38,920 nt of DNA from Flavobacteriaceae bacterium (GTDB lineage: Bacteria; Bacteroidota; Bacteroidia; Flavobacteriales; Flavobacteriaceae): NCBI GenBank assembly GCA_027065775.1, contig JAMONN010000137.1, forward strand, positions 1-38,920, written 5' to 3'. Within the stretch, counting starts at the first letter, position 1. Each line of letters begins with the position of its first letter. The notes beneath the pieces are model-generated. The model had not been told where the DNA came from. It ran no database searches and was given only the letters and a program-made list of their open reading frames with translations. Shown piece by piece: positions 112 through 38,585 of this stretch. The position numbers were made by a program, and so were the translations under genes.

Positions 112-201
112 TAGTTAATCAATTACTTAATTTAGTCAACTATTTTTACTTTCATTAACTAAGTTATATTTGAAAAACTAAATTTTTTACCAAAGTCGAT
201 A

Positions 202-717
202 ATGAAAAATATTTTACTCATTTTAATACTAATATCATGCGTTTCTTGCTTTAAAGCTTCATACTTTAAAATAGAGGATAATAAATTCATAAAAAAATAT
301 AAAGTTGGTGATATTTTAGTTTTTAAAAATGTTCAAAGTAATAAAGTTAAACAATATAAAATCTCCAAAATTAATAAGTACCATACTCGTGTAGAATTGA
401 TGGCTGGATCAAAGAGTTTTCATACTGTTGATATCTTTATTAATAATGGGAAAGAGTTTATGACATTTACAAAAATTGATAAAGAAATTATATTGTTTTT
501 TCAAGGTTCAAGATTTCATGAATTGAATAATTATAAGTTATATGATAAAAAATTAAATCTAAGTTTATCTAATAATAAATTTGAAAATATCATAGAAATT
601 AAAAGTTCGTATAATACAGACGACACTTCACCAATTATAATATATTGGGATAAAGAGTTTGGAATTATTAAATACGAGACTAAAAATGGAGAAATTTGGG
701 AGAGAACCAATTTTTAA
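202..717 (+). CDS. Small predicted lipoprotein of unknown function
   Basis: A 171-residue protein with a lysine after the start, a hydrophobic stretch at residues 4-14, and cysteines at 13 and 16 in a lipobox-like setting (LISC, CVSC). This suggests export and lipidation. The mature part is rich in Lys, Asn, Ile and Phe and has no recognisable domain. It contains alternating hydrophobic stretches compatible with a small beta-rich fold. It stands alone, 91 bases after the der stop, and is followed by repeat-containing DNA. I do not recognise the family. The start is the only ATG that includes the signal peptide. Confidence 0.6.
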   Translation: MKNILLILILISCVSCFKASYFKIEDNKFIKKYKVGDILVFKNVQSNKVKQYKISKINKYHTRVELMAGSKSFHTVDIFINNGKEFMTFTKIDKEIILFFQGSRFHELNNYKLYDKKLNLSLSNNKFENIIEIKSSYNTDDTSPIIIYWDKEFGIIKYETKNGEIWERTNF

Positions 718-1766: not shown

Positions 1767-3386
1767 ATGGCAAATAAAAGCACACGATCGCTTTCCGCAA
1801 GAAAAGGAATTGAAAAAAATTTATTCGAGGAAATTGCAAATAATACCAAAACTACAAACCCAAACGAAGCTTTAAAAAAAACAGCCCTTAATTTTCAAGT
1901 TGGTGAAGCAACGGTTGCTGGAACAGCTTCTTTTTACGATTTTACTCGCGAAGAAAACCGAAATCACAAGGTTTTTGTCTGTAATGGTACTGCTTGTATG
2001 TGTGCAAATACACAAGAAAATGTCATTAAAAATCTAAAAGAACATTTTGATGCTACCGAGATTGGTCACGCCGCGTGTATTGGCCATTGCCATAGTAACG
2101 CTGCTTTTATGTGGAACGACAAAACATATACCGCAACAAATTCTAAGGACATCAGTAATATCATTAAAAACGAAATTAAAAGTAATAATACCTATAAAGT
2201 TGCTGCCAACACAACGCCTATTTTAACTGGTGATATTGATGATATTAATACTTTTTTCGCTTTAGCGGAAGAATTTAAAGAGAATACAAATTTAGTTATC
2301 CAAGAATTAAAATCGTCTAATTTGCGTGGTCGTGGTGGCGCAGGATTTCCTTTTTGGTTTAAATTAGATGCTGTAATAAAAGAAGAAAACGAACAAAAAT
2401 ACATCGTTTGTAATGCAGACGAAGGCGATCCTGGAGCATTTTCGGATATGTATTTGTTAGAAAAACAACCTTACAAAGTATTATTCGGAATGTACCTTTC
2501 TGGTTTAACAGTTGGTGCAAATGCAGGAGTTTTATATGTTCGTGGTGAATATCCTAATTCCATAAAAATCATTAATGAAAGTATTGAGTATTTAAATAAA
2601 AATAACTTAACACCAAATTTCACTTGGAAAGTTATTAGAGGCCAAGGTTCGTATGTTTGTGGTGAAGAAACCGCTTTACTAAGTTCTATTGAAGGATTGC
2701 GACCAGAAGTTCGTGTTCGCCCGCCATATCCAGCACAATATGGTTTATATGGTAAACCAACCGTTTTAAGCAATGTAGAAACCTTTGCTAATATTCATTG
2801 GACTCTCAAAAATAGTGGAAATACCTACGCAAATATTGGTACAAAACAATCTACAGGAACTAAATTAGTTTCGCTAGATAGTTTCTTTAACCAACCAGGA
2901 ATGTATGAAATCGAAATGGGAACTCCTGTTTCTGAAATTATTTCTGATTACGGAAAAGGATTTAAAGAAACCATAAAAGCAATTCAAATTGGCGGACCTT
3001 TAGGAGGAATCGTACCTATAGAAAAACTAAACGATTTAACTTTAGATTTTGAATCGTTTAATAATAACGGTTTTCTATTAGGTCATGCAAGTTTTGTTTC
3101 TATTCCTACAAATTTTTCGATGTTAACCTATTTAGAACATTTATTAAAATTTACTGCAGATGAAAGTTGCGGAAAATGTTATCCGTGTAGAATTGGTTCT
3201 TTTAGAGGATTTGAAATGGTTAAAAAAGCAGGGAATTCCGATTATAAAATAGACAGAAAATTATTTGATGATTTATTAGAAACTTTAGAAATTGGTTCGC
3301 TTTGTGCTCTTGGTGGCGGTGTTCCTTTACCTATTAAGAATGCTTTGACTTATTTTGATGCGGAGTTGAAGGAGTATTTTTCTTAA
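1767..3386 (+). CDS. NAD-dependent formate dehydrogenase, fused NuoE/NuoF-like diaphorase subunit
   Basis: A 539-residue flavoprotein expected to pass electrons from the formate-oxidising subunit to NAD+ in the cytoplasm. The N-terminal region (about 66-120) is a NuoE-type [2Fe-2S] domain with C72, C77, C104 and C108 as likely ligands. Residues 150-539 are a NuoF-type module: GRGGAGFP (188-195) and CNADEGDPG (215-223) for FMN/NAD, GEETALLSSIEG (299-310), then a [4Fe-4S] site with C468, C471, C474 and C513. In Rhodobacter-type FdsGBA the two modules are separate genes, and here they are one polypeptide. The next gene is the catalytic subunit, 140 bases downstream. A NuoF of complex I is unlikely, because the partner is a formate dehydrogenase. 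Confidence 0.85.
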   Translation: MANKSTRSLSARKGIEKNLFEEIANNTKTTNPNEALKKTALNFQVGEATVAGTASFYDFTREENRNHKVFVCNGTACMCANTQENVIKNLKEHFDATEIGHAACIGHCHSNAAFMWNDKTYTATNSKDISNIIKNEIKSNNTYKVAANTTPILTGDIDDINTFFALAEEFKENTNLVIQELKSSNLRGRGGAGFPFWFKLDAVIKEENEQKYIVCNADEGDPGAFSDMYLLEKQPYKVLFGMYLSGLTVGANAGVLYVRGEYPNSIKIINESIEYLNKNNLTPNFTWKVIRGQGSYVCGEETALLSSIEGLRPEVRVRPPYPAQYGLYGKPTVLSNVETFANIHWTLKNSGNTYANIGTKQSTGTKLVSLDSFFNQPGMYEIEMGTPVSEIISDYGKGFKETIKAIQIGGPLGGIVPIEKLNDLTLDFESFNNNGFLLGHASFVSIPTNFSMLTYLEHLLKFTADESCGKCYPCRIGSFRGFEMVKKAGNSDYKIDRKLFDDLLETLEIGSLCALGGGVPLPIKNALTYFDAELKEYFS

Positions 3387-3518
3387 CCACAAGGTCCGCA
3401 AAGTGATCGCAAGGTTCGCAAAGAAAATTAAATCTAATTTTGATTAAATAATTTAAAGTAAAAGAAAAATATAAACTTAGCGATCTTTGCGTAAATCTTT
3501 GCGCTCTTTGCGGTTAAA
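3384..3518. repeat. 135-bp imperfect inverted repeat between the two formate dehydrogenase genes
   Basis: The left arm starts at the stop codon of the upstream gene with TTAACCACAAGGTCCGCAAAG and continues with CGCAAGGTTCGCAAAG. The right arm reads CTTTGCGTAAATCTTTGCG and ends in CTCTTTGCGGTTAA. Reverse-complemented, the right arm aligns with the left over about 42 bp at roughly three matches in four. The central spacer is about 50 bp of AT-rich DNA. The element ends about 10 bases before the next ATG. Confidence 0.65.
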
Positions 3519-3526
3519 ACAAGATT

Positions 3527-6232
3527 ATGAAAGCATACATAAACAACAAACAACACCAGTTCAACAAAAACGAAACCATCCTAGAATTCGTTCGAAGAAT
3601 AGAATCCGAAGAAATACCAACCATGTGTCAAGACAATCGATTAGAAAATTTCGGATCTTGTCGTGTTTGTTCTGTAGAGATTTCCAGAGAAAAAGATGGC
3701 GAAACTAAGGTTGTAGCTTCATGTCATACACCAGTTTCTGAAAACCTATATATTTATCCACAAACTGCTAAAATAAAACGATTACGTAAAAATATAGTGG
3801 AATTGGTTTTAACCGATTATCCTTCCGAAAAAGTATTTCCTTCCGAAGGTAAAAAAGCAACACCTTTTCAAAAAACTATTGCCGAAATTGGTATTCCAGA
3901 TGTTCGTTATCCGAAAGGAGAAACACATGAAGCTTTAGAAAAAGACGATTCTCATCCGTATATAAAATCCGATTTATCGCAATGTATTTCTTGTTTTAGA
4001 TGTGTTAGAGCATGTGAAGAAATTCAAGGAGAATTGGTTTTAAATATGACAGGAAGAGGATTTGCAACCAATATTATAAAAGGATTTGATACTAATTTCG
4101 ATTTATCCGCTTGTGTTTCTTGTGGCGCATGTGTACAAACTTGTCCGACAGAAGCATTAACCGATAAATTTGAAACCAAAACCTTAATTGCAGATGAAGT
4201 GATAAGAACAACTTGTACCTATTGTGGTGTTGGTTGTCAATTAGAAGTTTCAAAAATAAATGGAGAAATCAAAGGAATTCAAGCACCAGAAACAGCAGAA
4301 GTTAATTTAGGTCATACTTGTTTAAAAGGACGATTTGCGTTTCAGTTTTACAATCATCCAGATCGTTTAAAAGAACCATTAATCAAGAAAAACGGTAAAT
4401 TCGAAGAAGTTTCTTGGGATGAAGCTTATGATTTTATTGCCGAAAAATTAATCGAAACAAAAACCAAATATGGTGCAAATGCCATTGGCGCAATTTCTTC
4501 TTCAAGAGCAACTAACGAAGAGAATTATTTAATGCAAAAAATGATTCGTGCTGCTATCGGAACTAATAATATTGATGGTTGCGCAAGAGTTTGCCACGCT
4601 CCTACTGCTTACGGAATGCAACAAGCATTTGGTACAGGCGCTGCAACAAATTCGGTTAATGATTTAGAACAAACCGATGCAATTTTCTTATTTGGTGCAA
4701 ATCCAACCGAAGCACATCCTGTTACTGGAGCAAAAATCAAGCAATTATTTATGCGAGGTATTACTAGTATTGTAGTAGATCCCGTAAGAACAAAATTAGC
4801 CGATTTAGCAACTTATCATTTACAATTGCGACCAGGAACTAATGTGGCAATTTTAAATATGATTGCTCATTATATTGTAAAAGAGAATTTAGTAGACGAA
4901 GCGTTTATTTCTAAATATACCGAACATTTCAACGATTTTAAAAACCATGTACTCACTTTAGATATGGATGAGCTAGAAAAACTTACAACAGTTTCTAAAG
5001 ATTTGGTTCGAAAAGCGGCGATTGCTTATGCTAGTGCAAATAATGCAATGGAATTTCATGGCTTAGGAGTTACCGAACATTTTCAAGGTAGTAAAACCGT
5101 TATGTTGTTATCTAATATTGCTATGATGACTGGCAATATTGGTAGAAATGGTGTTGGATTAAATCCGTTAAGAGGTCAAAATAATGTGCAAGGCGCAGCA
5201 GATATGGGCGTTCAACCACATCAAGGTGCTGGTTATATGGATGTAAATGACAAAGAAGTACAATTGTATTACGCTAAAAAATATGGCGTACCAATGCCTG
5301 AAAAAGAAGGTTTAAAAATTCCAGAAATGATTAACGCAACTATCGAAGGTGATTTTAAAGCACTTTGGATTATGGGTGAAGATACTTTAATGACAGATCC
5401 GAACTCAAATCATATACGCAAATCTTTTGAAATGTTAGATTTATTGGTTGTGCAAGAATTATTTATGAGCGCTACCGCAGAAATGGCTGATGTTGTTTTA
5501 CCAGCATCTTCCTATTTTGAAAAAAATGGAACATTTACCAATGGCGAACGAAGAGTACAACGTGTTAACAAAGTAGTTGAACCAATTGGTAATACAAAAC
5601 CAGATGGGCAAATTATCATTGATATGATGTATAAATTAGGTTACGAACAACCAACAGGAAGAGTTTACGATGCTGAAAAATTATTAGAAGAAATTTCGGA
5701 TGTTATTCCGTTTTTTAAAGGAATTACTTGGGATAGATTAGGTGAAAATGGTTTACAATGGCCAGTTTCCGAAGATGGAATCGGCACACAAATGTTACAT
5801 ATAGATGGTGCTTTTAAAAGAGGGAAAGGGAAATTTCATAATTTTGCTTTTGAAGAATCTCCTGAATTGGTAGAACATCGAGAAAAATATCCGTTTATAT
5901 TAACAACTGCAAGACAATTAGAACATTACAATGCAGGAACGATGACAAGAAGAACAGACAATCAGATTCTTTCACCAAAAGATTATTTAGAAATCAACCC
6001 ATTAGATGCTGGAGAAAAAGGAATTTCTGAAGGCGATAAAGTTCGCATTTTTTCCGATAGAGGTTCAGTTAATATTGATGTGAAATTAAATTATACCGTA
6101 AAACCTGGCGTAGTAAGAACAACTTTTCATCAACCTGAAGTATTTATAAATATTATTACTGGTGATGTTGGCGATAAAGAAACTATGACTCCTGAATATA
6201 AAGTTGTTGCGGTTGATTTTGAGAAAATATAA
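3527..6232 (+). CDS. fdhF: Formate dehydrogenase catalytic (alpha) subunit, Mo/W-bis-MGD, Cys type
   Basis: A 901-residue molybdopterin oxidoreductase that oxidises formate to CO2. In order: a [2Fe-2S] domain (C34, C45, C48, C66); two ferredoxin-type [4Fe-4S] clusters (C153/156/159/163 and C196/199/202/206); the bis-MGD domain cluster (C230, C233, C237, C265, then LKGRF); and the active-site motif CARVCHAPT with C356-H357. The codon is Cys rather than UGA, so this is a selenium-independent enzyme. The C-terminal dinucleotide-binding region (about 790-901) ends normally. Between the [2Fe-2S] and ferredoxin domains, the His/Cys motif of NuoG/FdsA (DHPxxCxxCxxxGxC) is replaced by a stretch without cysteines (residues 97-115). 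There is no signal peptide, so it is cytoplasmic. No fdhD or cofactor gene is nearby. Confidence 0.9.
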   Translation: MKAYINNKQHQFNKNETILEFVRRIESEEIPTMCQDNRLENFGSCRVCSVEISREKDGETKVVASCHTPVSENLYIYPQTAKIKRLRKNIVELVLTDYPSEKVFPSEGKKATPFQKTIAEIGIPDVRYPKGETHEALEKDDSHPYIKSDLSQCISCFRCVRACEEIQGELVLNMTGRGFATNIIKGFDTNFDLSACVSCGACVQTCPTEALTDKFETKTLIADEVIRTTCTYCGVGCQLEVSKINGEIKGIQAPETAEVNLGHTCLKGRFAFQFYNHPDRLKEPLIKKNGKFEEVSWDEAYDFIAEKLIETKTKYGANAIGAISSSRATNEENYLMQKMIRAAIGTNNIDGCARVCHAPTAYGMQQAFGTGAATNSVNDLEQTDAIFLFGANPTEAHPVTGAKIKQLFMRGITSIVVDPVRTKLADLATYHLQLRPGTNVAILNMIAHYIVKENLVDEAFISKYTEHFNDFKNHVLTLDMDELEKLTTVSKDLVRKAAIAYASANNAMEFHGLGVTEHFQGSKTVMLLSNIAMMTGNIGRNGVGLNPLRGQNNVQGAADMGVQPHQGAGYMDVNDKEVQLYYAKKYGVPMPEKEGLKIPEMINATIEGDFKALWIMGEDTLMTDPNSNHIRKSFEMLDLLVVQELFMSATAEMADVVLPASSYFEKNGTFTNGERRVQRVNKVVEPIGNTKPDGQIIIDMMYKLGYEQPTGRVYDAEKLLEEISDVIPFFKGITWDRLGENGLQWPVSEDGIGTQMLHIDGAFKRGKGKFHNFAFEESPELVEHREKYPFILTTARQLEHYNAGTMTRRTDNQILSPKDYLEINPLDAGEKGISEGDKVRIFSDRGSVNIDVKLNYTVKPGVVRTTFHQPEVFINIITGDVGDKETMTPEYKVVAVDFEKI

Positions 6233-15586: not shown

Positions 15587-16567
15587 TTAGTGTCTTCTAG
15601 AAGTGGTTCTAGAACCTGTACTTCCTCTAGATGAACTACTGCGACGAGTAGAACTCGAACGTACTCTACTTGAAGAACCACTTCGAGATGTTGGTCTGTT
15701 TCTTATAACTGGTTTGCTACGAGATGAACTAGGTCTTACTCTTGGCTTTGCACTCGAAGGTCTAGAATTTGGTCGAACTCTCGGTTTAACATTTGATGGT
15801 CTTGAACTTGGACGAGTAGTAGGTCTGACTCTACTATTTACATTTGATCTAGCGTTAGAATTTCTTGTAGTTGTATTACCTCTAACACGGGAATTGTTTC
15901 TAGAATCATATCTACTTGCAAAGTTACTAGTTGCTCTGGCAGACCTTCTTCCGTATGCATAATCATTATGTCCGCCATAATAATTTCCATTTCCGTAAAA
16001 AGGTCTATTAAAAGGTGCGCATCCAAAACCATTGTTCCATCCAAAACCATTGTTCCATCCAAAACCATTGTTCCATCCAAAACCATTGTTCCATCCAAAA
16101 CCATTGTTCCATCCAAAACCATTATTCCATCCAAAACCATTGTTCCATCCAAAACCATTATTCCATCCAAAACCGCCATAATTATAGACATTTACTACAG
16201 TCTCTCCACTGTCTTCCCACGCATAATTTTCATAAGGATAATCTTTATCTTCTTCTCTATCTAATATTTCTAAATCTTCACCAACTGCTTGTTCTGATTT
16301 ATAAGTGTCTATATCTGTAAATATTTCTTCTTCAGAAGCATCATATTTATCAGCATTTTTTTGAAAATAGTTTTCATATCTAGTACCTCTTTTATTTTCG
16401 GTTTTTGAAGTTTCTTCATTTTTGGCCACATGCCTATCTGAAGATTCATAAATACCATCATTGTCAGTAGTATTTTGATAAGAACTGCAGGATGATAATG
16501 CAACAAAAATTAAACTTAATAAAAAGTATAATTTTGTTTTCGGAAGAAGTAATTTTAAATTTTTCAT
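15587..16567 (-). CDS. Repeat-rich lipoprotein (GFGWNN repeats, Arg/Ser-rich tail)
   Basis: A 326-residue predicted lipoprotein. Its signal peptide ends in the lipobox ALSSC (Cys28). The region to about 125 is acidic and tyrosine-containing. Then come eight exact GFGWNN hexapeptides, followed by a Gly/Tyr/Asn region and a C-terminal half dominated by Arg, Ser, Pro and Thr (RPSSRPSNVKPRVRPNSRPS). The charge is strongly split, acidic first and very basic at the end. No catalytic domain is seen. Such low-complexity lipoproteins occur in flavobacteria with varied names and unknown function. A surface-exposed adhesive or matrix role is only an inference. It diverges from proS. Confidence 0.7.
   Translation of the reverse strand: MKNLKLLLPKTKLYFLLSLIFVALSSCSSYQNTTDNDGIYESSDRHVAKNEETSKTENKRGTRYENYFQKNADKYDASEEEIFTDIDTYKSEQAVGEDLEILDREEDKDYPYENYAWEDSGETVVNVYNYGGFGWNNGFGWNNGFGWNNGFGWNNGFGWNNGFGWNNGFGWNNGFGWNNGFGCAPFNRPFYGNGNYYGGHNDYAYGRRSARATSNFASRYDSRNNSRVRGNTTTRNSNARSNVNSRVRPTTRPSSRPSNVKPRVRPNSRPSSAKPRVRPSSSRSKPVIRNRPTSRSGSSSRVRSSSTRRSSSSRGSTGSRTTSRRH
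16023..16174. repeat. 18-bp tandem repeat, eight copies
   Basis: The unit CCAAAACCATTGTTCCAT is repeated eight times from 16023 to 16166, followed by a partial ninth. Copies six and eight differ by one base (TTATT for TTGTT), a synonymous Asn change on the coding strand. It encodes GFGWNN in the minus-strand lipoprotein gene. The near-identity implies recent expansion and likely length variation between strains. Confidence 0.95.
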
Positions 16568-31510: not shown

Positions 31511-31640
31511 ATTGTAAAATGTTTTCTCGCAGATTTTGCAGATTCCGCAGATTTTTTAAGGTTTTAATATTTTTTAAAATTGATTTTTATTTGCATATTG
31601 TTTGTTCACGCAGATATTCACAGATTCCGCAGATTTTAAT
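31497..31640. repeat. Tandem duplication of the dut leader with CGCAGATT words
   Basis: ATTTTTATTTGCATATTGT occurs at 31497-31515, covering the dut start, and again at 31583-31601. Each copy is followed by the same pattern: TCGCAGATTTTGCAGATTCC (31529 on) and ACGCAGATATTCACAGATTC (31609 on), both leading into CGCAGATTTT. The period is 86 bases. Confidence 0.75.
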
Positions 31641-33171: not shown

Positions 33172-34995
33172 TTAATCTCTAGTTCTACGTCTTCTGCTAC
33201 TTTTTTCAGTTTTACGGTTAAAACCTTCTTTATTATCTCTTGCTCCTCTAAAACCAGAACCACTTTTGTTTCTATCGTTACCACCTTTTCTGTGTCCACT
33301 TCCGCCACCACCACTACGTTTTCTATCTCCGCCGCCACGATTTCTGTCTCTTCCGCCGCCGCTTCCTCCACGACCTCTATCACGATTACGACTTCTTGTT
33401 TTAGGTTTTTCCGTTTTTTCTACGCTTATTCTTCTTCCGTTTCTATTTGCACCTTCAAATGCTTTTAAAATTTCTTCGGTAAATGATTTATCTGCTTCGA
33501 AAAAAGAAAAACTTTTTAGAATTTCAATTTGACCTATATCAATTTTTTTATCCAAATGGTCATTAATCATACCAATCATTCTGGCAGGATTCAATTCATC
33601 CATCTGACCTAAATTCACAAAGAAACGCTGCATATTTTCATCAGCAACTCTATCATGTGATTTTGAATTATCTGCTAAAATATCACCTGCTTTTTGATAA
33701 TAATTAAGTAAGGTTTCAAACTCATTATAAACAAAACGCTTGATTAATTCGTCTTTAGTTAATTTTTTTAATTGCTTGGTAACTTCTTCTAAATTATCAG
33801 GTACTTTATCTTCAGCTACTTCTAAAGATTTAATTTTATCAACGTATTGCATTAATTTTACGCTACAAATATCTTTACCTGTTGGTACTTCTTTTGGCGT
33901 AAATTTCTTTTTAATCATACGTTCAATCTGACCGATTCTACGTTTTTCTTTACTCGAAATAATTACAATAGAAGTTCCTTCTTTACCTGCACGACCTGTT
34001 CTACCACTTCTGTGCGTATAAGATTCTAACTGATCTGGTAATTTATGATTTATAACGTGTGTTAAATCGGTTACGTCAATTCCACGAGCAGCAACATCCG
34101 TCGCTACCAAAAAGTTTAATTTTTTCTTACGAAATTTATTCATCACAAAATCACGTTGTCCTTGCGACAAATCACCATGTAATGAATCTGCACTATAACC
34201 GTCTTGAATTAATTTATCTGCAATTTCTTGTGTTTCTCTTCGTGTTCTACAGAAAATTACACCGTACATGCCAACATTCATATCAACAATACGTTTTAAT
34301 GTAGCGTAACGATTTCTTTCAGAAACTAAATAATATTCATGCTCAACAGTATCTGCACCTTTATTTTTAGTTCCTGCAGTAATTTCAATGGGATTATCCA
34401 TATAATTCCTAGCAATTCTTTCCACTTCTTGTGGGAAAGTAGCTGAAAACAACAATGTTTGCTTATCTGCTGGCGTAACACTTAATACTTTATCTAGATC
34501 TTCTTTAAAACCCATATTAAGCATTTCATCGGCCTCATCTAAAACAACCCATTGAATATCTTCTAATTTTAATGCTTTTCTCTTTATTAAATCAACCGTT
34601 CTCCCTGGTGTACCAACTACGATATGCGCACCACGTTTTAATGATTTAATTTGATTGGTAATATTTGATCCACCATATACACAAAGTGAAGATAACCCTT
34701 TTATGTTTTTAGAGAATTCTTTTATATTTCTTTCAATCTGAATAGCTAACTCACGAGTTGGCGACAAAATTATTGCCTGCGTAGCTCTTGAGTCTGTTTT
34801 GATTTGCTCTATAATAGGCAAACTAAAAGCTGCAGTTTTACCTGTACCAGTTTGTGCAAATGCTTTTAAATCTGCTACAGAATTTATTATTTGTGGGATT
34901 GCTTTTTCTTGAATTTCAGAAGGTGTTTCATAACCTATATCTGCAAGTGCATCTGTGATCTCTTTACAAAGACCTAACTCTTTAAATTTTGACAT
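33172..34995 (-). CDS. DEAD-box ATP-dependent RNA helicase (DeaD/CsdA-like)
   Basis: A 607-residue RNA helicase. The Q motif is at 21-34 (GYETPSEIQEKAIP), Walker A at AQTGTGKT (47-54), PTRELA (79-84), DEAD (153-156), SAT (184-186), ATDVAARGID (298-307) and HRSGRTGRAG (328-337). All are complete. Residues about 455-527 form a DbpA-type RNA-binding domain (MQRFFVNLGQMDELNPARMIG). The last 75 residues are Arg/Gly/Ser-rich (RGRGGSGGGRDRNRGGG) and should bind RNA non-specifically. These features suit ribosome assembly, mRNA turnover or cold adaptation. The gene is monocistronic with a long leader. Confidence 0.93.
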   Translation of the reverse strand: MSKFKELGLCKEITDALADIGYETPSEIQEKAIPQIINSVADLKAFAQTGTGKTAAFSLPIIEQIKTDSRATQAIILSPTRELAIQIERNIKEFSKNIKGLSSLCVYGGSNITNQIKSLKRGAHIVVGTPGRTVDLIKRKALKLEDIQWVVLDEADEMLNMGFKEDLDKVLSVTPADKQTLLFSATFPQEVERIARNYMDNPIEITAGTKNKGADTVEHEYYLVSERNRYATLKRIVDMNVGMYGVIFCRTRRETQEIADKLIQDGYSADSLHGDLSQGQRDFVMNKFRKKKLNFLVATDVAARGIDVTDLTHVINHKLPDQLESYTHRSGRTGRAGKEGTSIVIISSKEKRRIGQIERMIKKKFTPKEVPTGKDICSVKLMQYVDKIKSLEVAEDKVPDNLEEVTKQLKKLTKDELIKRFVYNEFETLLNYYQKAGDILADNSKSHDRVADENMQRFFVNLGQMDELNPARMIGMINDHLDKKIDIGQIEILKSFSFFEADKSFTEEILKAFEGANRNGRRISVEKTEKPKTRSRNRDRGRGGSGGGRDRNRGGGDRKRSGGGGSGHRKGGNDRNKSGSGFRGARDNKEGFNRKTEKSSRRRRTRD

Positions 34996-36742: not shown

Positions 36743-36814
36743 ACTTAGCGACTTAGTGACTTAGTGACTTAGTGACTTAGTGACTTAGTGACTTAGTGAC
36801 TTAGTGACTTAGTG
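36743..36814. repeat. Exact 8-bp tandem array (ACTTAGTG x8)
   Basis: One variant unit ACTTAGCG (36743-36750) is followed by eight perfect ACTTAGTG units (36751-36814). It is not in a gene. The unit is one of the words of the CTTTGCG/CTTAGTG intergenic repeat family, so the array looks like a local expansion of that element. Confidence 0.95.
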
Positions 36815-36896
36815 AGAAAATAAATATTTACCTACTATAAACAACATAGAGCCATAATTTTATACTATTTTCGCCAAAAAATTAAAGTATATAGTA

Positions 36897-36948
36897 ATCC
36901 TTGCGAACTTTGCGAATCCCGAAACTTCGGGAGCGAACTTTGCGGTTA
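36897..36948 (+). repeat. CTTTGCG element with nested CCCGAA palindrome before the ABC-F gene
   Basis: GCGAACTTTGCG appears twice (36904-36915 and 36933-36944). Between the copies is TCCCGAAACTTCGGGA (36917-36932), a hairpin with a 6-bp stem and 4-base loop. The block ends TTTGCGGTTAAA about 11 bases before the ATG, just as the element at 3475-3518 does. Confidence 0.7.
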
Positions 36949-36953
36949 AATAA

Positions 36954-38585
<1,632 letters not shown>

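Follow-up and report, generated by a model that had tools for sequence, protein, structure and literature searches.

What separates the two subunit genes of a formate dehydrogenase in a member of the Flavobacteriaceae, and how did it come to be there? In the window, that is, the whole 38,920-nt stretch of DNA analysed here, an fdsB-type beta gene (positions 1767-3386, forward strand; thioredoxin-like 2Fe-2S, Nuo51 FMN and NADH 4Fe-4S domains) is followed by an fdsA-type alpha gene (3527-6232, forward strand; molybdopterin oxidoreductase), both types being assigned by reading of the domains. Counted from the last sense codon, the spacer between the two genes is 143 nt long. A preliminary description placed a degenerate inverted repeat here and suggested that, as RNA, it might set the ratio of the two subunits.

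The spacer element and its relatives in the same genome

The inverted repeat is indeed present at this place. The arm model described below maps a left arm to 3383-3423 on the forward strand, with a TTAACC head facing outward and four CGCAAAG-type words, and a right arm to 3476-3517 on the reverse strand, with the GGTTAA head likewise outward. The stop codon TAA of fdsB (3384-3386) lies within the left head, and the ATG of fdsA, at 3527, comes 9 nt beyond the right arm. Thus, the inverted arrangement holds, but the element at 3383-3517 is not a single degenerate palindrome; it consists of two copies of an arm unit of about 41 nt with four words each, set head-out around an AT-rich inner part of 52 nt (3424-3475). 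The Smith-Waterman score of the two halves is 28, compared to a shuffle mean of 14.9, and was reached in 2 of 2000 shuffles; however, 14 of 2261 other windows of the same AT-rich sequence scored as high or higher, so that the palindrome by itself is just moderately unusual. The significance of the repeat comes from its dispersed family rather than from the palindrome alone.

A blastn search with the element yielded 44 matches at E<=1e-3 in the 2.77-Mb draft genome, itself included. A sequence-only arm model, R1, built from 30 arms of this genome, among them both window arms, detected at least 93 arms at E<=0.01, mostly intergenic; this count includes the 30 and is a lower bound because 150 of the 2076 first-look candidates were scored. 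The consensus of the 30 oriented arms is TTAACC-GCAAAG-N3-GCAAAG-N4/5-GCAARG-N3-GCAAAG, 41 nt that begin with TTAACCGCAAAG. On the fetched segments of the genome, a profile found 95 arms at E<=0.05, which form 70 elements, namely, 48 single arms, 16 simple head-out pairs, three larger groups, two head-in pairs and one tandem pair. Each of the larger groups contains a head-out pair, so that head-out groupings make up 19 of the 70 elements, the one in the window included, and the inverted arrangement is recurrent, as the genome-wide profile search proposed in the preliminary description was meant to find out. The fetched segments contain 80 arms at E<1e-3, and 69 of these do not overlap any open reading frame of at least 90 aa by more than 20 nt; of the 11 that do, C187:599 is some 600 nt away from either end of the frame, C27:8298 is 139 nt inside it, and the remaining nine are within 45 nt of an end. 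The genes beside or between arms are ordinary ones, such as a VWA gene on contig C193 and, next to arms, genes for MoaC and a RidA-like protein; the notion that arms mark special cargo was rejected after a scan of ten proteins.

The window also holds a single arm of the same family at 36899-36949 (reverse strand), with its head 10 nt before the reading frame 36960-38585. About 85 nt from this arm lie nine head-to-tail copies of ACTTAGTG (36743-36815, 98% match), which is related to the CACTAAG/CGCTAAG words; word arrays, to judge from this one, seem to be able to grow by tandem expansion. Upstream of fdsB, a degenerate inverted pair of GCAAAG words (1585-1635), recognised by pattern match only and absent from the list of the model, adjoins an array of another word family, AATCCGTG (1661-1691). 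Elsewhere in the window, an 18-bp tandem repeat (16020-16174, 8.6 copies, 97% match) lies within the reading frame 15587-16567 on the reverse strand, and three copies of GCAGATTTT between genes (31529-31555) are possibly a further remnant of a word array.

Empty sites and gene-bearing forms

For the fds junction, 20 loci gave 12 alignable fdsB-fdsA pairs, our own included; four loci were left out because the homologues show 29-34% identity and long gaps (L069-L072), and four more because they do not contain both genes (L073-L076). The two genes are normally tightly spaced, as the preliminary description had assumed, with a spacer of just 10-17 nt in 7 of the 11 relatives' pairs. Arms were not found in 10 of the 11 junctions, the exception being one relative (G004) with a 67-nt spacer and one weak arm (E 0.006). 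No relative has the same spacer devoid of arms, save that one congener (G003) has a 60-nt spacer in which no arm was found. The spacer of G037 measures 61 nt and lacks a recognisable arm of the window family, despite two such arms (E 3e-9 and 4e-4) upstream of the fdsB homologue in this genome of another family (L064, 38-136, on G037:C92). In one more genome of a different family (G052, L061), the spacer is 135 nt long and, by eye, consists of unrelated short-word arrays, GTTTAACTGTTGAACT and AGCCAAAGGCTAAA; it seems that this gap in the operon was filled independently.

We queried 16 further element sites in five congeners. At 10 of these, both flanks are present in at least one congener, which gives 19 comparisons, and in none of them was an arm found in the congener's spacer. 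The congener spacers are long (115-206 nt) at two of the 10 sites, C84:3652 and C276, yet also without arms; at the other 8, they measure -1 to 60 nt. Arm-like words at C276 in G004 (arm E 0.04) were not counted, the upstream gene being unmatched. Neither a target-site duplication nor an insertion point could be made out exactly in these comparisons, given the great divergence of the congeners and the way in which the ends of the elements run into stop codons. The TTAA at the element ends is self-complementary; as a target duplication it would presumably be of the piggyBac/IS1380 kind. This interpretation was dropped: where the ends are not self-complementary (TGAA in L157, TCACC in L161, GCCAC in L172), they are inverted, not direct, so TTAA is not established as a target duplication. 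The window element has the traits of a MITE in being short, non-coding and multicopy, with inverted ends and presence or absence at orthologous sites; hence, of the suggested likeness to MITE or REP-type elements, the part that stands, given the 19 head-out groupings and the empty orthologous sites, is that of a dispersed MITE-like insertion, and REP in the RAYT sense does not.

Which gene, if any, belongs with such arms? That GxxExxY and four-helix-bundle genes accompany such repeats was an assumption of ours, which we then tested. Matches to PF13366 (GxxExxY) occur in 101, and those to PF05635 (four-helix-bundle) in 157, of 198 Bacteroidota genomes. Our genome contains 10 and 13 such matches, respectively, some being fragments of one gene, and the genes are mostly flanked by inverted or direct short-word arrays. 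The GxxExxY gene on C193 lies between arms whose words are the same as those of the window element. In congener G005, a GxxExxY gene (C38:198-548), apparently orthologous to it, as the start of the neighbouring gene is the same by eye, sits between R1 arms at 124-163 (forward) and 577-617 (reverse). Contig C56 of G004 carries, next to the syntenic VWA gene, a GxxExxY remnant (residues 2-41, at 33175-33294) between two arms (L321, 2603-2644 and 2842-2877), which indicates that the gene can decay while the arms remain.

R1 arms lie head-out on both sides within 200 nt of the gene in 10 of 80 named GxxExxY loci at E<=1e-3 (17 of 80 at E<=0.1), five of these ten being one orthologous Flavobacterium site; beyond the named loci, R1 arms bracket GxxExxY at L151, and the count among the phylum loci is 1 of 28. 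In a set of 99 genomes, with 65 first-look candidates scored per genome under stricter filters, GxxExxY is found in 10 of 12 arm-positive compared to 18 of 87 arm-negative genomes (Fisher p 4e-5, phylogeny uncontrolled); the two arm-positive genomes without it are G002, which is 70% complete, and G036. Our own genome has about 90 arms, yet just a single GxxExxY gene of which it is clear that the arms on both sides are of exactly that type. The arms of the window copy are inverted and head-out, with phased C-R-C-N-R-A-K words, and belong to the kind found on both sides of GxxExxY genes. However, whereas members of this family (TIGR04256/PF13366) are encoded between same-model arms here and in other genomes, the 52-nt inner part of the window copy has no room for the gene, so that this copy is classed as a gene-less derivative only.

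Gene-bearing and gene-less forms are found at one and the same junction in genus g80 of the Flavobacteriaceae, which we take to be Flavobacterium because 188 of its 199 genomes were matched by a query made from the joined flanks of a named Flavobacterium. The upstream gene of this junction is, we assume, hemW-like and the downstream one a cyclase. The 35 loci compared, which are the 30 best of the 188 matching genomes, not a random sample, and five named ones, include four with spacers of 25-32 nt, one of which by eye keeps a 12-nt arm remnant; one with 62 nt; 15 with a short gene-less word element (67-96 nt), made of ATCCGCG/GCTGAT words in five and of GCCACGAAG/CTTTGCGGC words in ten; 14 with a full element (476-596 nt), in which GxxExxY lies between arms of the R1 type and, at one locus, the gene match is in two pieces; and one of 1105 nt. 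Thus, gene-less and gene-bearing forms alternate at a single stop-start gap. In the 14 full elements, arm identity is slightly higher within an element (0.889) than between elements (0.868).

The arrangement extends beyond the particular words of the R1 arms. We compared the left 220 nt of each gene's flanks with the reverse complement of the right 220 nt against dinucleotide shuffles, taking an inverted z>3 as positive; dropped from the counts were L154 (cut contig), L225 and L269 (short flank) and a GxxExxY fragment on C272. Positive were 62 of 78 named GxxExxY loci, compared to 2 of 74 and 2 of 72 controls, and 23 of 28 GxxExxY phylum loci but just 18 of 30 four-helix-bundle phylum loci, with 1 of 58 and 0 of 58 phylum-set controls. 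The like pattern around four-helix-bundle genes implies that word arrays are not specific to GxxExxY. In our own genome, 15 of 20 such genes pass (5 of 9 GxxExxY and 10 of 11 four-helix) compared to 6 of 142 control genes, the two strongest of which adjoin arms. Three or more oriented C-R-C-N-R-A-K words are found close to the gene at 67 of the 78 named loci, compared to 2 of 67 far control pairs, and word spacing peaks at 9-10 nt. Among 12 GxxExxY loci labelled other than Bacteroidota, several of which are FCB relatives and one, a Rhizobium MAG contig, may be misbinned, 10 pass (L262 and L265 fail); those that pass include single loci from Tolypothrix (Cyanobacteria), Anaerolineae and Planctomycetota, as well as one of the two from Acidobacteria. 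Word composition tracks protein distance (Mantel rho 0.32, p 0.001; 84 of 108 loci, those with at least four words), a correlation that may reflect co-evolution of protein and words and also fits plain co-inheritance. The PF05635 genes of our genome at C241:3397-3705, C207:2529-2840 and C142:1059-1364 and eight others (L039-L051) have word arrays of their own, inverted or direct, and the flanks of four-helix (S23/Avd-like) genes, for example GTCTTTGGTC and AATGTAACAAT, parallel the GxxExxY pattern.

Alternative explanations and known repeats

A transcribed hairpin, cut by RNase III or stabilising one cistron and so setting the fdsB:fdsA ratio, in the manner of a 23S rRNA intervening sequence (IVS) or an operon REP, appears unlikely to us. 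The element does sit between co-directional genes, its predicted RNA fold is strong (-41.8 kcal/mol, z -6.5, reached by none of 200 shuffles), and the Coxiella IVS is described as excised by RNase III (PMC4990558). Selection on RNA pairing, by contrast, has left no excess of G-U among the mismatches: the co-directional arm pairs of our genome have 14 G-U compared to 19 A-C, and the phylum loci judged usable for inverted flanks have 47 compared to 38 around GxxExxY (25 of 28 loci, p 0.39) and 23 compared to 44 around four-helix genes (22 of 30 loci, p 0.01, the opposite direction). Nor are the arms of one element matched to each other, identity being 0.765 within elements (13 pairs) and 0.80 between them (2198 pairs); 48 of the 70 elements are single arms, the neighbouring genes are unrelated, and in the relatives' fds junctions, the weak arm of G004 apart, no arm was found. 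The suggested control of the subunit ratio by a hairpin is thus not supported; mRNA processing by RNase III at the element is possible.

Quite improbable, too, is a classical MITE of an insertion sequence whose DNA transposase parent lies outside the draft assembly, with GxxExxY a mere passenger. Shortness, inverted ends, many copies and empty sites would all agree with such an origin, and the assembly is 87% complete. GxxExxY, however, is surrounded by the same word grammar across phyla; in a transposase search that covered the Y1 family, arms are absent from the fetched flanks (up to 1500 nt) of the five Y1 transposase stretches of our genome, and the inverted end tetranucleotides of L157, L161 and L172 argue against it as well. 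As a candidate parent with the same ends, GxxExxY alone was found between matching arms. Among bacterial MITEs, which include BrickBuilt of Porphyromonas gingivalis with its minisatellite (PMC5771137), MITECca01 of Cardinium is like the window element in being short, non-autonomous, dispersed and mostly intergenic, with inverted ends, and it occurs beside gene-bearing parents; according to PMC9769881, the parent is an IS982 transposase element, whereas here the gene between the arms is GxxExxY, with a predicted PD-(D/E)XK fold, and the ends are word arrays.

Very unlikely, in our view, is the reading in which the arms are arrays of binding sites for a protein of the host, a regulator or a nucleoid protein that binds DNA or RNA, and in which selection maintains them while gene conversion or recombination, not transposition, spreads them. 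The four words are phased at 9/11-12/9 nt, and among 33 single arms the head is closer than the tail to a gene end in 23 and a start codon is faced in 20; in PMC4679880, intergenic heptamer direct repeats near start codons are interpreted as regulator sites. Those TAACTGA repeats, reported there from Beggiatoaceae, Cyanobacteria and some Bacteroidetes, resemble the arms as 7-nt word arrays between genes, near start codons and sometimes right after a stop codon, sporadic across phyla; they differ in being direct, with one inverted case in that genome, and GxxExxY is not named in the text of PMC4679880. Against binding arrays speak the unrelated genes flanked by arms, the orthologous sites without conserved arms and the filling of the same sites by other word families.

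Two further known systems do not fit. REPs and REPINs share with the arms many intergenic copies, single or in pairs of opposite orientation, but, as characterised in PMC3733652, are 20-40 bp palindromes, mostly with GTAG or CGTC tags, whereas the arms are 41 nt long and not self-palindromic, with TTAACC heads; there is no tagged palindrome of this kind here and, in the fetched flanks (up to 1500 nt), no RAYT gene flanked by the repeat. The 23S rRNA IVS with an S23/four-helix-bundle frame (Coxiella, PMC4990558) is alike in its small reading frame between complementary ends and its sporadic occurrence; it resides in rRNA, whereas here the elements lie between protein genes, the related frame is GxxExxY and the RNA-structure signature is lacking. 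The location between fdsB and fdsA excludes such an identity, and the Rfam search of the window gave a tRNA only.

A putative small mobile element and its GxxExxY protein

We conclude that the fds spacer is probably a gene-less, non-autonomous, MITE-like member of a mobile-looking family associated with GxxExxY, mostly near-neutral here. The dispersal of the arms, the empty sites, the same-model arms that bracket GxxExxY, the co-occurrence of the two and the alleles with and without the gene are established; what we add by inference is recognition of the arms, at the DNA level, by GxxExxY, which would promote copying in trans. The structural model of the GxxExxY protein (pLDDT 94.7) has a PD-(D/E)XK (PDDEXK_3) fold, and D63, E73 and K75 are invariant in 14 GxxExxY sequences. 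Its best match in a second-look structure comparison is 4ic1 (SSO0001; Z 10.1), and the archaeal Holliday junction resolvase 1gef scores Z 7.5; all but two of the matches listed have Z below 8, which possibly signifies a mere common arrangement. Foldseek matches are weak (best E 3.6e-3), and a profile search against PDB sequences gave no match. Going by the predicted model, the nuclease fold match is generic. The fold and the invariant residues lead us to suggest that the element works at the DNA level and is driven by the nuclease, with the gene-less copies as its derivatives.

Each end of this small element would be an array of phased 7-nt words (here CGCAAAG, with the head TTAACC), the two ends being set head-out, and gene-bearing copies would carry one reading frame, GxxExxY. 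The putative nuclease would recognise the arms as DNA and mobilise copies in trans, conceivably through a cut that is then repaired by copying, or through action on a cruciform that the arms might form. Copies would settle in gaps between stop and start codons, where they may do little harm, and the copy in the fds operon would most likely be a near-neutral spacer.

Our searches of openly licensed PMC papers turned up neither a report of word arrays surrounding GxxExxY genes nor a described role for GxxExxY, which is mentioned in passing in PMC8934634 and occurs by name in PMC12085832; the portion of the RepRanger study (PMC12306157) that tabulates two Flavobacterium species does not describe such elements, and the corresponding part of PMC5524665 merely lists four-helix-bundle genes. 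The family of gene-bearing and gene-less forms is, apparently, an undescribed kind of small mobile element, and we take the window element to be a variant of the MITE kind, with a fair chance that its parent family is a new class. More tentatively, and with somewhat less than even confidence, we suggest that GxxExxY together with phased-word arrays represents an undescribed minimal mobile element found across phyla. Here, a lone PD-(D/E)XK nuclease would copy gene-bearing and gene-less elements into stop-start junctions without a transposase, recombinase or reverse transcriptase, the words would be lineage-specific and co-evolving, the four-helix (S23/Avd-like) genes would form a parallel class with words of their own, and the fds spacer would be a gene-less copy. 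The flank rule gives the GxxExxY and four-helix families a testable context, as components of small elements that lie between genes and have ends matching each other, and would account for a large share of the short-word repeats that clutter these genomes, operon-splitting spacers such as that of fds among them.
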